Source of the DNA: Ectocarpus siliculosus
Lineage: Eukaryota > Sar > Phaeophyceae > Ectocarpales > Ectocarpaceae
Assembly (NCBI GenBank): GCA_000310025.1
Contig: FN649740.1
Span: 5,271,634 to 5,335,633, forward strand
Reading direction: 5' to 3'
DNA length: 64,000 bases
This document shows positions 3,001 to 58,091 of the stretch, piece after piece (position 1 is the first letter of the stretch; the number at the start of each line of letters is the position of its first letter). The position numbers were made by a program, and so were the translations under genes. The notes under the pieces are model-generated. The model did not search any database. It saw only the letters and a program-made list of their open reading frames with translations, and was not told where the DNA came from.

Positions 3001-6000
3001 GAAACATTCGCGTAGAAGGCATCAATAGAACGCCACGGTGGCTCGCACGCACAAGGTTTGCTCGTCCTGCCTCGAGACAATGGGCAGCGTCGCAGGCTCG
3101 TCATTACCGGCGCCGCAACCCCCTTGGTGTCGGATTATGCGGAACGGCGTCGCGTCGACGTTGAGGCTAGACAATTTGGCACCTGGCCAGCAATAAACCA
3201 ACGATCCAATCCAAGACCACAGCGGCTTTACGGACATGACGACCGGTCCGAGTCAGTGGCCTCGGCCATTGCAATACTTGCGTGCGATGTGCGAAAGGAA
3301 ACTGGCTAGGCAGCAAACAACACGGCCGAAACACCAGGGGGGCATCTAAGATGTTCTGGTGAGCCGTTTCCTTCAATGTTCCTGCTCCTGGTGGATACGA
3401 TGGTGGGGGTATCTTCACTTGGGACGACGCTCTGTTATTTCCCACGTCCTTGATACTTCGAAGGCAAAGACCTACCAGTGAGCTACAAGATCGGTGTCAC
3501 AGCAATATGTTTGACCCCACATCAAGTTTGGACAAGAAAAGCCGACACAGAGCATCCCAGACCCAAGACCCGCAATTTCGGGACGAAATATGGGTGAAGT
3601 ACAACGACACCGCAAAGTGAGACAAATGGGCGCAGACTAGTGCCAACAGCGGACAAACCCAGAGAACAAAGCAGTAGCAGGGTCTCATGGGTCACAACAA
3701 GGGGCCTCATGAACCCCAACCTGTGTTAGAACCAAGCATACGGCCGAACGTTCCAGCTAGCTTCCTAGAGTGCGTCGTCTACAAGATCCTCATTCTTGAT
3801 AGGCCTCTCGCTATGTGCCTGTGAGACTTGCACCTGCGTCACGTCCGTCTACAACACTTTGCTACCGATCTCAACGACCATAGTGTATCAGATGCTTCCA
3901 AGGTTCCCCTGTAGACTGCCGTGCTGCAATCGGGGGCGTGGAAGACTTTGGGGAATCGAACATGCTTCCGTTGTACCGGAGCAAAAAACAAATACACTCC
4001 AGGCTAGCCCCGGGACGTAACTGAACTACAACAGTACTTCCCGGAAGGAGGATACCAACGCCGAAGCATACCTCAGGGCCCGTAGCACTTCGGTCTGGCC
4101 TCCTGTGATTCGCAGGAGTACCTTCGCCTTAAGTAGCTGGTCCGACCTCGCATCCCCAGCCTGATATGAAGTACGCAACACCGTTTAGTTCACATGAAGC
4201 ACAGCGCACAACCAATGAGCGGTAAGAATCAGAATGAAGAGCCCAGCATGTTCTTAACACGAAGCCCCTACGGGCACCATACTCGTTGCGTGGACGAAGA
4301 CTCTGTTGTCTGCTTTCCCTCTCGTTTTCAACATTTTTGCTCTCCCTCCGGCGCCCGACTATCCTACGGTCTTGCCTCTACCAAGCTGCAGAGCTCCGAC
4401 CTAGGGGTACACAGACAAATTCCTCCGCGGCGCTTGCCGAAGGTTCATATCGCGAGAAAGGATCCGCCACCATTTCCCTCAACGTTCAAGTGCACCAACA
4501 AAACAAGCGTTTTCAACAACATATTCGAATGCTACTCTAACAATATCTCCTCGAGGAGAACCGAACCCCCAATCCGAGCCACATGGTGGTCGAGGGTTAT
4601 CACACAGACCGCGGGCGATGCAGGCCACGTAAAACGCTAAGCCGTAGCTTTTCTCCTCCCCCTTTTCCAAATAACACAGGGCGGAGATATGAGGCGTTCC
4701 AAATCCCGTTCAAAGGATGCCATGACACCGTTGATACACATCAGTTCTACATATGCTGCATGAGATCAGGAAGTATCGAGCAACATGTTTGGTAAGACAC
4801 TGCACTCCCCCATTCATGAAAAAAGAGAGCAAGGGTTCATCCCCTAAGGTGCGCAAGGGGACTGGGGTGGATGTTGATGACAGCCATATCAACATATGTC
4901 AACGAGAGAACAGCATCATCGTTATCAACAAAACCATACCATATTTGTTATCGGCGAGACGTCCACTCACCAGAGAGGGGTTCAACGCGGTAGCTTTCTC
5001 GAGCGCGGCCACTCTGCTCCTAGCTGCCACAGTCTTTTCTTCGTGGCGGTTCACGCCCATCTGGTATCGTTATGGTATACCATATGTAGACATTTGGTGT
5101 ATTCAGTGTGGGTGTACGTATACTGTGAACGAATACCCACGGCATTTAACCGTGTTTGGGCACTCATACTTGATAACATACACCTCTAACTACACCGACA
5201 TGTAACAATATATCATGCTCAAGTTCCGCACGAAAGCAGCCGCACATTCCAGCGGCATCATGCCGCCGAAACGTAGCACTCTGCACTCTTCACTACTCTG
5301 TTCCCTTGCCACCGCAAGACTCGGATTGCTATCGTAATCCTTTGATGATGCTATCGTTATCCTTTGGTGACGGTAGCAGTGGAATCGCAATGGCAACAAC
5401 GCGGGAACGGCATTTTCTATCGATACATTGTTTCTATGGTGCGAGGAAACAAATACATGTGGTTTCCAATCTGCGATGAAACGAACACGAAAACTTACGT
5501 CGAGACCGGTTTTCTGGATGCCGCCTTGCAGGAAGCGGCGGAATTCCGAGAAGTCGATCTCGCCTGACCCGTCCACGTCGAAATATCCGAAGAGAGTTTT
5601 GATGTCCTCCTCACCCAGGCCGAGACCCTATCGGCAGAGTATCAATCGCATTCGTGATAGTGCATGTTGAAAAGTGGCTTCATTATAGAATGCTACAAGC
5701 CGTCTTTGAAGAAAGGTCCAGACTTACAGGCGCAAACGCGCAAACAGACTATTTACAGGATCTCCGTACCTTTTGCTTGATGCTTTCGCGGAATTCCGTG
5801 TAGTCCATAAAGAGCCGCCTACCAGCCGCGGCGGGACGGAAATGCCGGAAAGCTCGTAACATCTCCAGCGAGCCCCCTTTCACCTGTTCTTTTTTGTCGC
5901 CATGAACACCGCACAAATGACAAGGGTGAACAAAACCCATGACCGTCTTTCTGTGTCTCCTCCCTCCCTGAATTCCTACCCTCTACAAGAATCACTAGTC

Positions 6001-51193: not shown

Positions 51194-53005
51194 CTGATTC
51201 ATGAGAGCTTCATCCACACCGTACACAACACCTTCACTCGTCCCCGCGCTGCTAAACAGCAGCAGCCCTGCGTACACGGCTGACTGGTGATGTTGGGTGA
51301 GGTGTGAGCATGTGCAGTAGCAGTGGTGACCTCTCTGTGAGGCTCCATCCACATCTATCTACGCCTCGCGTCTGTCTCTCCGCCCGTTCTTTTTCGCGCT
51401 TCGCGCAAAATATTTTGATTATTTTTGTTGGGCCCCTGTATGTAGGGAGGATAGCCGTTGTATGAGTAGTTGTTGCGTACACGTGCACATCTGCGAAACG
51501 ACCTGTAGACGTAAACCGGTGATCCTCGTCCACACATGTTTGTATCCATGTGGATGCCAACAATCAGAATAACTCTGGCGAAATTTCTGCTTGTGCTTGG
51601 AAATCCTGACACCAAGGACCGGTGCGGCATATGCCCCCCGTAAATTTTTCGAAAAAAAGGTCTCAAACCGCCTGCTCCCTTGCTTGTTCCGCACCGCTAG
51701 GAAAGAAAAAGGGGAACATATTTATGCAGTGTACTACGGAAGCTTAGCTGGTTATTGCGATGGTGACAGGTCCATGAACGGGCTTCAAGTTTATTTTGGG
51801 GGGGGTGGATACCGAGTCCGTGACGCAGTACGCAACACAAACTCGCTCCCTCAGCAAGGTGTGTCTGCCTGTCGCTCCGCACGAAACGCCTTGTAGACTA
51901 CACCATAGCGTACTCCTACTAGTGGAACCAGCTGGTACCAGCGATAGCTCTAACAATAGTTGGCGTAGTCCGTCGCCGGGGATACATGCCTGCCAGTCAG
52001 AGGTTCAACCGAGCAATGTACAACTGTCAAGTACAGCAGTTTGTGTAGGGTACCTGGGCCAGTTCAACGTTGGAGCGCACGAGGTGATAAATGGAATTCT
52101 CGGTCTCAGCAAGGTCAGCTTCCATCACCTCCAAGCCCCCTTCCATCTCTTGCTGCTCCATCCTTCCGGTGTGTTTGTTGAAACACGATCTCACCAACGG
52201 CATTAATCAACGCAACGCAACACGCCCGAGGAACCCCATGCCCCAAGCCCCAAGTGCAGCGGGATGCGGGATGCGGGGGTCTGTTGGTTCAGATACCGGT
52301 TCGCAGGCGGCGTAATTACTCACCACCCAACCACCCCCATGCGACGGCGCCAGGCGCTGTCTTTTACAGTCTAGGGGACCCCCACCTCCCTCCCTATTGT
52401 AGATCTTGAGATCACCACACATCATGAGATAGGAGGAGCACGCGGGAGGGAAGAGTAGCACGCACCTCTATGCACGCCTGGATTCCGTGACACCTGTTAG
52501 TGGAGGATAGCTGATGCCTACTGAAGGTGAGATGGTTTGGATCAGCGGGCCGTGGCAGAGGGTTGCGTGGAGTGTACATAGCGACAACAGCAGTACCATG
52601 CAGTTCAAAACAGCACTGCTGTACATCAGTTAGCGCCCGCAATTAAGAAACGCTTATTTCAGGTCCAGCCTCGAATTCTTATTGTGGGCTATTAACTCAG
52701 CGTATGTCGTTCAGTTTTTTATATATCATGTTTCTTATTTTGTCGTGCAGCCAAATCCTGCTGAATTTCTTAAATCGGCAATTTCTTATTTCTCTGCTTT
52801 CCTCGCCTCCCGTACTCAACCCCGATTCTCACTACCGACGGCTGCACGTAAGGCCACTCCCTAGAAGCGAAATGTATTCAACGGCAACGTCTTGCTGTCG
52901 CTACAAGGTCTTCTACCCCCCTCATGAGTGAGGGCTGAAACTAAACAAATGCATGAACACCGCATGATGCCTCACCCGCACGCCGACAGACAACAACGAA
53001 AATCA

Positions 53006-53580
53006 GAGCTTTAGGCTGACTCTTATGGCTCCCCATAGTTGGCGCGACGGATTTTTTTGGACGGGCATACCCCCCCCCCCCCNNNNNNNNNNNNNNNNNN
53101 NNNNNNNNNNNNNNNNNNNNNNNNNNNNNNNNNNNNNNNNNNNNNNNNNNNNNNNNNNNNNNNNNNNNNNNNNNNNNNNNNNGTCGTGACTGCTGTTGTG
53201 TCTGTGAGTACTGAGAAATGTCAAACCATCTGAGCAAAAGTAAGAATCCCTTTGGAGAATCCGTCGAGGGTGCTCTACGTTTGTTTTGGATGCCTAAACG
53301 GATTCTCCAAACGGATTCTTACTTTTGCTCACATGGATTGACATTTCTCAGCACACACAGACCCCACAGCAGTCACCACTAGCTTCAAAGACGCCTACAG
53401 GTGTGGTGCGTACAGCCTTCAAGTTCTGGTGACGACCCGACAATCATGGAGGGAGAACTCTGTGGTGGTGTGGTGAGAGGTCTGTCTTTTGGTCGAAATC
53501 AGGGGGGGGGGGTATGCCCGTCCAAAAAAATCCGTCGCGCCAACTATGGGGAGCCATAAAAGTCAGCCTTAGCGCCAGCA
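53006..53580. repeat. Large imperfect palindrome (foldback) inside the mobile element
   Basis: Outer arms 53006-53082 and 53504-53580 share GGCGCGACGGATTTTTTTGG in opposite orientation. Inner arms 53183-53264 and 53298-53380 share TGAGCAAAAGTAAGAATCC. The loop is about 33 bases. Confidence 0.85.
53083..53182. other. Assembly gap (100 N)
   Basis: Exactly 100 N, a placeholder length. It sits in the left arm of the palindrome beside a C run (53071-53082) whose partner is the G run at 53504-53513. The right arm has about 125 bases in the equivalent place, so the true gap is probably of that order. Confidence 0.97.
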
Positions 53581-53925
53581 GAGCAGAGCGCAGAGCCCGC
53601 AGGGGGCCGGAGGGGGCGCCGCAAAAAAAAACACTCCCCCCTCGGCGTACAACTAATAATAATGCACTGTGGGAGGGGGGGGGGGTAGGGGGAGAGGGGG
53701 AAAGAGCGAGAGAGCTGTGGGGTTTGTTTCTTATTCGACACACTCCCCCGTAACACCTCGTTTCTTATGTAGTAGGGCAGCAGTCGCTGCTGTGTTTCTT
53801 GTTGAGACATTTCTTACTGTATGACCCAGATTGAGCTATGTTTCTTAAGCCTGTTTTCTTATTTTTCGTGAAAAAGTGAGCCTCAATTTCTTAACAAAAT
53901 ATTTCTTAATTGAGGGCGCTAACTG

Positions 53926-54593
53926 TAGTCTATTGCTGTAGTTTTTCTAATGTGCGATCCAAGCATGATTTCCACCCCTTTGCCGCGTCCGCACCCTTTC
54001 GAACACCAGCCTTAAAACTCATCACGCATCGTTTCTTTCCGACCGTGCTGACTGGTGCAGCCATGTTGTTGACACGAGGTCACGAATAGCTTTATACCTG
54101 TATGGTCAGGCATCCCCTCCCCCGATCCACACGTAGGTGCAAGCTCTCCATCCTTTTGTAGGCGGAATTTGTACGTTGATTGAGAACAAGTGGTCGATCG
54201 CCCCTTGTGTGATTCAATAGGTAGCTTCATATTACCCTCTCACGCTAGGTTGTGGGTTCCAGCCTCTAGCCTCTCCGGAATGTACGGTGATACAAGTGGG
54301 TGTAGCTGAGAACGCCCCGGGGGGACGCCATAGTGTATTATGGGCAACCGACAGCAAACGGCATACTGGGAGGGTCTAACCCCCAAAACGGCACACCACG
54401 AAAGAGCTTGACTCGGGAAATGACCCCGAGGCGGTACGCTGATTGGCTGCGACCGCCGACTACCATTTTCTGGTGGCTTACGCGGAGGGTAGTACCGCAA
54501 TCGGGCCTCTGGCGTCGACTTTAACCGTTTTCTGTCCTCGCCCCGGTCACAACAATCTGTCGCAAGAAATTTCAACCGCACAACCCTTGGCTG
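53926..54593. other. Spacer between two mobile elements
   Basis: About 670 bases with no gene or repeat that I can support. Confidence 0.4.
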
Positions 54594-56036: not shown

Positions 56037-58091
56037 ATGATAAACTGCCATGTACCCATAATAATTCTTGTTGATTCTCGCGATTTTGTTCTTCGCTTCT
56101 TGTTGCTAGGGTATACCCGTTCTTTCGATGCCTTCGCCATCGCCTTGAGCCAAGCATGTGAGGGAGGGGAGAAGCGTTGGTACACATCGACCACTGAGCT
56201 GCAGCTGGGGTCGTTGGACATCTGCAGGGCGTGCCGAAGTACCCCGACCTTGCACGTCCGTGTAACTGGTGGGACTCCTACAAGCTTATGGTCTCCTCCT
56301 ACTGTGCAGGCACTGCCGAACACGCAAAGCTCGAAGGTTCGTGTCGTGAGCCGTGTGCCAGTCGTGCGTGCTCTTCGTTTGACGTGGGCGTTTTCTATGG
56401 AAACCTTGGTGCAGAGAGCCGCCATCGAGCTGTGGTCGCGGTCCGAACGTCTTGAGATGGTGGGACCATTGTGTGCGGCTAGCCTAGGATCAGTGGTTTG
56501 GCCTCTGGGGCTGACACAGCTGGTGTTGGACACAGATTTCCATATTCCAATGGAAAGCCTGTCGTTTCCAGTGCTCCTGCAAAATCTTTCGTTCGGAGAT
56601 TATTTCAACCAGCCTATTGCGGGAGTCGTGTGGCCGGCGTCCATGAAACAGCTATCGTTCGGAGCAAGATTCAATCAGCGTATTGCGGGAGTCGTGTGGC
56701 CGGCGTCCATGAAACAGCTATCGTTCGGAGATGAGTTCGACCAACCCATTGCTCAAGTCGTGTGGCCGGCTTCCCTGCTACAGCTATCGTTCGGAGATGA
56801 TTTCGATCAACCCATTGCTCAAGTCGTGTGGCCGGCTTCCCTGCTACAGCTATCTTTCGGAGGTGACTTCAATCAACCCATCGCTCAAGTCGTGTGGCCG
56901 GCGCCCCTGCAACGGCTATCGTTCGGAGATGTATTCAATCAACCCATTGCTGAAGTCGTGTGGCCGGTTTCGCTGTTACAGCTGTCGTTCGGAGCAAGAT
57001 TCAACCAACCCATTGCTAACATCGCGTGGCCAGCGTCCTTGCAACAGCTATCGCTCGGGTCGGAATTCGATCAACCTATCGCGGGAGTCGTGTTTCCGGC
57101 GCGTCTGGATAAACTATATTTGGGGAATAAATTCAACCAGGATATTGCGGGAGTCGTGTGGCCGGCGTCCCTGAAACAGCTATCGTTCGGAGCAAGATTC
57201 AATCAGCGTATTGCGGGAGTCGTGTGGCCGACGTCCATGAAACAGCTATCGTTCGGATATGAGTTCGACCAACCCATCGCTCAAGTCGTGTGGCCGGCTT
57301 CCCTGCTACAGCTATCGTTCGGAGCAGGATTCGATCAACCCATTGCTCAAGTCGTGTGGCCGGCTTCCCTGCTACAGCTATCTTTCGGAGGTGACTTCAA
57401 TCAACCCATCGCTCAAGTCGTGTGGCCGGCGTCCCTGCAACGGCTATCGTTCGGATATGAGTTCAATCAACCCATTGCTGAAGTCGTGTGGCCGGCTTCC
57501 CTGCTACAGCTATCGTTCGGAGCAAGATTCAACCAACCCATTGCTCAAGTCGCGTGGCCGGCGTCCCTGCAACAGCTATCGTTCGGAAATGATTTCAATC
57601 AGCCCATGGGTGAAGTCGTGTGGCCGGCGTCCCTGCAACAGCTATCGTTCGGAGATGATTTCAATCAACCCATTGCTGAAGTCGTGTGGCCGGCGTCCCT
57701 GCAACAGCTGTGGTTCGGAGATGATTTCAATCAGCCCATTGGTGAAGTCGTGTGGCCGACGTCCCTGCAACAGCTATCGCTCGGGTCGGAATTCGATCAA
57801 CCTATCGCGGGAGTCGTGTTTCCGGCGCGTCTGGAAAAACTGTATTTCGGGAATAGATTCAACCAGGATATTGCCGGCGTGGTGTGGCCGGCGTCCGTGA
57901 TACAGCTATCGTTCGGAGATGATTTCAATCAGCCCCTTGCTGAAGTCGTGTGGCCGGCGTCCCTGAAACAGCTACTGCTCGGGCCGCGATTCAAGCAGGC
58001 TATTTCCGGGGTCGCGTGGCCACGTTCGATGCGGCGTGTGGCACGTGGCGGATTAACCCTGCCGTGGCATCACGGGCATACTTTCGGATGA
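56037..58091 (+). CDS. FNIP-type 22-residue tandem repeat protein, up to 684 residues
   Basis: A single open frame to TGA 58089-58091. Bases 56586-58037 encode 22 consecutive 22-residue units with consensus LSFGDDFNQPIAEVVWPASL plus two residues; each unit is 66 bases. This period and the FNQPI/WP signature match the FNIP repeat, a leucine-rich-repeat relative best known from Dictyostelium and expanded in brown algae. Such arrays fold as solenoids and usually serve protein binding. Invariant positions are Leu-x-(Phe/Leu)-Gly, Phe, Gln, Ile and Pro. Units 8 and 19 carry VVFPAR in place of VVWPAS. The N-terminal segment before 56397 (METLVQRAAIELWSRSERLE) is not repeat-like and may be untranslated or belong to an intron, so the start could be 56037 or 56397. 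There is no transmembrane segment after the repeats. The specific role is unknown. Confidence 0.8.
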   Translation: MINCHVPIIILVDSRDFVLRFLLLGYTRSFDAFAIALSQACEGGEKRWYTSTTELQLGSLDICRACRSTPTLHVRVTGGTPTSLWSPPTVQALPNTQSSKVRVVSRVPVVRALRLTWAFSMETLVQRAAIELWSRSERLEMVGPLCAASLGSVVWPLGLTQLVLDTDFHIPMESLSFPVLLQNLSFGDYFNQPIAGVVWPASMKQLSFGARFNQRIAGVVWPASMKQLSFGDEFDQPIAQVVWPASLLQLSFGDDFDQPIAQVVWPASLLQLSFGGDFNQPIAQVVWPAPLQRLSFGDVFNQPIAEVVWPVSLLQLSFGARFNQPIANIAWPASLQQLSLGSEFDQPIAGVVFPARLDKLYLGNKFNQDIAGVVWPASLKQLSFGARFNQRIAGVVWPTSMKQLSFGYEFDQPIAQVVWPASLLQLSFGAGFDQPIAQVVWPASLLQLSFGGDFNQPIAQVVWPASLQRLSFGYEFNQPIAEVVWPASLLQLSFGARFNQPIAQVAWPASLQQLSFGNDFNQPMGEVVWPASLQQLSFGDDFNQPIAEVVWPASLQQLWFGDDFNQPIGEVVWPTSLQQLSLGSEFDQPIAGVVFPARLEKLYFGNRFNQDIAGVVWPASVIQLSFGDDFNQPLAEVVWPASLKQLLLGPRFKQAISGVAWPRSMRRVARGGLTLPWHHGHTFG
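56586..58037 (+). repeat. Coding 66-base tandem repeat, 22 units
   Basis: In-frame array with high nucleotide identity between units (GTCGTGTGGCCGGC recurs in most). Units 2-9 (56652-57179) and units 10-15 plus 19-20 (57180-57575, 57774-57905) line up in the same order, with three extra units (57576-57773) between. Confidence 0.95.

Follow-up and report, generated by a model that had tools for sequence, protein, structure and literature searches.

Mariner-Tc1 transposons of Ectocarpus have been sorted into 17 families, and most copies of these are miniature elements, or MITEs, according to the Ectocarpus paper (PMC12477816). One of them, TcMar-N1_Ec32, is 217 bp long and is paired there with the 4.4-kb TcMar-2_Ec32, which is reported to have an N-terminal EsV-1-7 domain. 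That domain is described in the same paper as having proliferated in brown algae and as otherwise known mostly from giant viruses, and Harbinger elements of the TNA type are also reported from Ectocarpus (PMC12477816). For the pogo group, PMC7386202 sets out the features of the superfamily and of its family Mover, for which no detectable DNA-binding motif was reported, and pogo diversity is the subject of PMC7325037. The word "subterminal" is absent from these two pogo papers and from the Ectocarpus paper. No account of subterminal arrays in pogo elements of the kind described below was found among the best 10 to 20 of the 16 to 297 papers matched in each literature search, as judged by titles and the beginnings of abstracts. 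The letters of the terminal inverted repeat (TIR) occur in 5 papers, none of which, judged in the same way, describes an element with these ends; one of the 5 uses a piggyBac vector.

We analyzed a 64,000-nucleotide stretch of the Ectocarpus siliculosus genome, referred to here as the window, in which a first-pass annotation had described a single transposon with TIRs, two clusters of TTTCTTA motifs, and a built-in foldback. We are confident that two transposons are present instead: an outer element that is a non-autonomous, MITE-like member of the pogo type (IS630-Tc1-mariner), and an inner, PIF/Harbinger-like element that inserted later into this one copy. The features are listed in Table 1.

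Table 1. Features of the nested elements, in window coordinates
Feature	Position	Strand	Description and basis
Outer element, left part	52627..53013	-	Boundaries from 36 genomic loci; end homologous to 3' end of transposase-bearing pogo-type elements
Outer element, right part	53572..53925	-	Follows the right copy of the duplicated TTA; end homologous to 5' end of transposase-bearing elements
Left TIR	52627..52650	+	CAGTTAGCGCCCGCAATTAAGAAA; inverted-repeat alignment; tip found with few changes in other copies
Right TIR	53902..53925	-	Inverted-repeat alignment
Left target-site dinucleotide	52625..52626	.	AT in the window copy (TA in most other copies)
Right target-site dinucleotide	53926..53927	.	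TA
Left TTTCTTA array	52731..52788	+	3 words in the window copy (consensus 4)
Right TTTCTTA array	53727..53908	+	7 words, the last inside the TIR; orientation as in the left words
Inner element	53014..53568	.	Nested foldback transposon with long TIRs starting GGCTGACTCTTATGG; edges read; copies elsewhere in the genome
Inner target duplication, left copy	53011..53013	.	TTA
Inner target duplication, right copy	53569..53571	.	TTA
Assembly gap	53083..53182	.	100 N, within the left arm of the inner element

The outer element and its target sites

The TIRs that had been drawn around about 1.3 kb were recovered, with a length of 24 nt and 96% complementarity. When the 189-Mb genome was searched, the left 388 and right 361 bases of the window's element adjoined one another in many other copies from which the palindrome was absent, which leaves a non-coding, multi-copy outer element of approximately 740 bp. 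The expectation that a search with both ends would return many copies sharing them was borne out: allowing 2 mismatches at most, the TIR pattern had 609 matches in the genome compared to 13 for the reversed control. We read 36 other loci of the outer family and placed both ends in 31; the loci without paired ends (L029, L030, L036, L037, and L039) had an end missing, a gap, or one end too distant. A consensus of 740 bp was derived from the 15 copies that gave a single uninterrupted match, and these copies were 91.7-98.0% identical to it, with 97.3% identity for the window copy.

The dinucleotides flanking the 31 other copies with both ends were TA on both sides in 28, TG and TA in 2, and TA and TC in 1. 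For the empty-site test, 45 joined flanks were compared with the fetched loci and 4 matched across the joint. Uninterrupted empty sites were obtained in this way for 3 outer copies, and their edges coincided with the TIRs: copy L020 had empty sites at L013 (TA) and L066 (AA at that position), with L007 repeating the L013 site; copy L048 had them at L018 and within L048 itself; and copy L067 had them at L026, L048, and L054. TA was present at 6 of the 7 empty sites read, the AA of L066 being the exception, and L067 gave a further empty site for L048 that lies outside these 7. The fourth match, L042 against itself, was discounted as an empty site (76% match, no TA). The suggestion that empty sites would define the target duplication and the edges was therefore upheld by other copies of the family, and no empty copy of the window element's own site was found in this genome.

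In loci L031-L034 and L036-L042, the right-hand match starts in each case at position 378 of the outer element (741 bp as query), a shared breakpoint near the point where the inner element inserted. The left-hand matches found in these loci vary in length, and the middles of the loci also differ.

Transposase-bearing relatives

The genome contained 94 matches to the pogo-type DDE_1 domain and, in a search that ignores introns, none to the Tc1-type DDE_3 domain (PF13358) among 11 candidates. One group of DDE_1 genes carries ends related to those of the outer element. At locus L068, a 694-aa open reading frame (ORF) is followed by the TIR tip CAGATGGCGCCCGCA, which adjoins TA and differs from the tip in the window by two bases. 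Loci L071 and L072 have 676-aa ORFs that are 99.6% identical, and the two loci begin to diverge directly after CTG-TAGAC. With the adjoining DNA, two elements with the 676-aa DDE_1 ORF could be delimited in full, one of 4156 and one of 4221 bp; their TIRs are identical over 23 bp, TA stands on both sides, and TAAGAAC words occur at both ends. A related TIR was found 3' of the gene in 8 of the 9 copies of this transposase group in which the 3' flank was read (the exception is C16). Loci representing other DDE_1 groups (L069, L070, and L073) lacked ends of this kind over the 4 kb that were read.

The DDE_1 match was above the Pfam cut-off for both proteins, with E values of 1.1e-9 for the 676-aa protein and 4.6e-15 for the 694-aa protein. 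An HTH_Tnp_Tc5 match in the 676-aa protein scored 17.8 bits, under the Pfam cut-off of 22.2, and was not listed for the 694-aa protein; a C2H2 match in the transposase was also under the cut-off. The predicted catalytic triad of the 676-aa protein, chosen by motif and not by structure, is D359, D477, and D514, with 36 residues between the last two (DD36D). A Pfam scan found no EsV-1-7 domain in the 676-aa ORF or in seven ORFs beside it. A search of the PDB with the transposase returned only CTCF, at the zinc finger (E 0.051). In viral contigs, 3 stretches fitted a pattern, but none was confirmed as a relative.

Locus L068 also contains, at 748-951, a MITE of 204 bp that has C-type ends and GTTCTTA words. 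It lies immediately downstream from a gene of this transposase group and is a family member nested in a likely parent.

We compared the ends of the outer element with those of the 4156-bp element. The left end aligned to the 3' end with a score of 37 (best of 1000 shuffles, 25) and the right end to the 5' end with a score of 35 (best of 1000 shuffles, 28). The crossed pairs were weaker, at 25 for left against 5' (reached by 1 of 1000 shuffles) and 20 for right against 3' (reached by 9 of 1000). With the first 24 bases removed, the right-to-5' match still scored 28, compared to a shuffle maximum of 26; the left-to-3' match fell to 16, which was equaled by 90 of 1000 shuffles, so that the relation on that side is carried by the TIR and its immediately neighboring bases. 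The earlier expectation of a full-length, transposase-bearing copy was borne out: such elements exist and share the motif polarity of the outer element, with TIRs and ends that are related to its own and not identical.

The outer element had been left without a superfamily. It can be placed in the pogo group of IS630-Tc1-mariner because it has the related ends, the motif polarity, and the TA duplications of pogo-type elements. Its description as a non-autonomous DNA transposon was right, given its multiple copies, its TA duplications, the empty sites with edges at the TIRs, and the related elements that bear a transposase. It was probably mobilized in trans by a pogo-type transposase.

Subterminal arrays and the TIR box

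The outer element contains 11 TTTCTTA or TAAGAAA words in 741 bp, those in the TIRs included, whereas 2000 dinucleotide shuffles never gave more than 2 (mean 0.20). The recurrence of the word near both ends and not in the middle, as first remarked in this one copy, is a property of the family: across the 31 other copies, the first 200 bases hold 113 words and the last 220 bases hold 200, with 5 more in the 11,007 intervening bases. The subterminal words repeat the inner box of the TIR itself. They number 4 and 7 at the two ends of the outer consensus and 2 to 5 at each end of the transposase-bearing elements. On the plus strand, the words of outer copies have the same orientation at both ends. 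Among the tabulated ends other than the 64 of the outer family, each word-bearing end has words of one orientation, and where both ends of an element are listed with words these are forward at one end and reverse at the other when read inwards.

With the box defined as TAAGAA with at most 1 mismatch, it was readable in 103 of 108 ends. The pairs of TIR base and array base in these 103 ends were A/A 325, A/T 36, C/C 25, T/A 21, A/G 6, and T/T 6, followed by T/C 4, A/C 3, G/A 3, G/T 1, and T/G 1, with no C/A. The arrays that accompany A-type boxes are accordingly A-type for the most part, C-type boxes are paired exclusively with C, and T boxes are mixed. Since the copies are related by descent, the agreement between box and array represents few events and not hundreds.

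The array words are putative binding sites for the transposase. A transposase made elsewhere, of the DDE type, would bind the outer TIR and probably also the TAAGAAA words beside it; the outer element would then be cut out and inserted at a TA, which would be duplicated. A broader reading, which we hold only tentatively and consider somewhat doubtful, is that pogo-type transposition here relies on an array of boxes of fixed polarity at each end, and that box and array change together whenever specificity moves from C to A or back. If this reading is correct, the A-type elements are a possible subfamily with a changed address label that outlived, or still keeps, its matching transposase. The covariation of TIR box and array also offers a simple, testable account of how the pogo-type transposases here may recognize their ends.

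Exact A-type ends (TAAGAAA) occur 92 times in the genome and 0 times in the control. The outer element in the window is of this type. A transposase with A-type ends was not found: each of the 94 DDE_1 matches is more than 31 kb away from the nearest of these 92 ends. The long outer copies L048, L066, and L067 had no match to the 676-aa transposase, nor did two stretches between A-type ends, one of 3.2 kb on C12 and one of 6.6 kb on C18. The right end on C18 has no TA after it and its box is off by one base, so that the two ends there may belong to different elements. These results bear on whether the A-type family was moved by a pogo-type transposase of its own, now lost or unseen, and not by the C-type one that was found. 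This is a question within the pogo assignment and not an exclusive rival to it, and we consider the two answers evenly balanced. The A-type family has mostly A in both box and array, the transposase-bearing elements read have C or T in the box, and no A-type gene was found, all of which would fit a separate transposase; however, a minority of the 92 A-type ends were read through, so that an A-type gene lacking a recognized DDE_1 domain may have been missed.

Subterminal arrays are known in the hAT, CACTA, and KDZ superfamilies, and target duplications are 8 bp in hAT and KDZ and 3 bp in CACTA. The CAG tips and the subterminal word clusters of the outer element do resemble those of hAT and CACTA elements. 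Membership of one of these superfamilies rather than of the pogo group is nevertheless very improbable, as the duplication is TA in 28 of 31 copies and not 8 bp or 3 bp, and the ends match those of pogo-type elements.

The inner foldback element

The long central palindrome that had been noted was confirmed. It appears in the window as two pairs of arms, 53013-53080 with 53502-53569 (99%) and 53183-53269 with 53293-53379 (89%), and both are parts of one long palindrome because the 100 N hide part of the left arm. The window's right arm matched the left arm of the copy at L047 in one piece of 270 bases (97%) and its own left arm in two pieces only, with 122 bases missing at the 100 N.

The foldback is not a built-in and unusual part of the outer element, as the first-pass annotation had supposed. 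It is a separate transposon that inserted later and is ordinary of its kind, and it has TIRs, a target duplication, and copies of its own. That it is integral to the 1.3-kb transposon and moves with it has next to no probability: it does have a roughly central position, and inverted repeats are common to the two, but its arm was seen in none of the other 36 outer-family loci, 15 of which cross the insertion site in one uninterrupted match and were picked for that, and it has copies elsewhere and a TTA duplication of its own. The right arm had at least 65 matching stretches in the genome (40 of 76 candidates scored), and the TIR tip, with at most 1 mismatch, had 59 matches compared to 0 for the control.

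We looked at 13 loci in addition to the window and saw both ends in 9 inner copies. Matching 3-bp TNA duplications were present in 6 of these 9, the window included (TTA in the window and L086, TCA in L046, and TAA in L084, L087, and L088). The other 3 were TGA/TGT at L083, TTA/TTG at L092, and L085, in which the right end is altered. The overlap of matches had suggested an 8-bp duplication, but some of those bases are TIR sequence, and the actual duplication is 3 bp.

The TNA duplications, together with the TIR, are the reason for assigning the inner element, which had also been without a superfamily, as PIF/Harbinger-like, a designation that goes by target duplication and TIR only. The TIR starts with GGC, which is a Harbinger-like trait. 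The genome has 75 matches to the Harbinger-type DDE_Tnp_4 domain, and no transposase-bearing element with the inner TIR was identified, the nearest match being 8.8 kb from any of the 59 inner-type ends. In the proposed sequence of events, a long-TIR foldback inserted later into this one outer copy, with duplication of TTA. What looked like a hybrid element is resolved as two nested transposons, and an element previously unassigned now has a place.

A GC-rich repeat, GCGGAGCCCCCACGCCAGCTGCTGTCA, is common to L047 (about 1972-2000) and L068 (about 3447-3492). At L047, an inner-type element starts directly after it.

Genome context

EsV-1-7 domains had at least 150 matches in the genome (150 scored of 880 candidates). 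None were found in 14 control genomes, of which those named are prokaryotes, so that this has little bearing on other eukaryotes. The abundance of the domain points to a brown alga as the probable host. Elsewhere in the window, FNIP repeats make up most of a 684-aa ORF at 56037-58091 (16 stretches matched, E 6e-116).

Comparison with known systems

Like the Mariner-Tc1 MITEs of Ectocarpus (PMC12477816), the elements described here are short and non-autonomous and stand beside a transposon of about 4 kb; the 204-bp MITE with C-type ends in L068 is a further likeness. Unlike TcMar-2 (PMC12477816), the transposase-bearing relative has no EsV-1-7 domain in the 676-aa ORF or the seven neighboring ORFs scanned. 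The 17 published Ectocarpus families (PMC12477816) were compared by description and not by sequence, and identity with one of them is possible.

The inner element resembles the TNA-group PIF/Harbinger elements of Ectocarpus (PMC12477816) in its 3-bp TNA duplication, its multiple copies, and the presence of DDE_Tnp_4 genes in the genome. Compared to PIF/Harbinger elements, its arms are long, at about 270 nt, and a transposase-bearing element with the same TIR was not identified.

The features shared with the pogo superfamily and Mover (PMC7386202) are the DDE_1 domain, DD36D, the TA duplication, a TIR of less than 40 bp, a length within 1.2-5.2 kb, and probably a stramenopile host. Agreement specific to Mover is limited to DD36D and the probable host group. 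Mover was described as having no detectable DNA-binding motif (PMC7386202), whereas HTH_Tnp_Tc5 and C2H2 matches, both below the Pfam cut-offs, occur here. Taken together, the closest systems in print are the Mariner-Tc1 MITEs of Ectocarpus (PMC12477816) and the pogo family Mover (PMC7386202).
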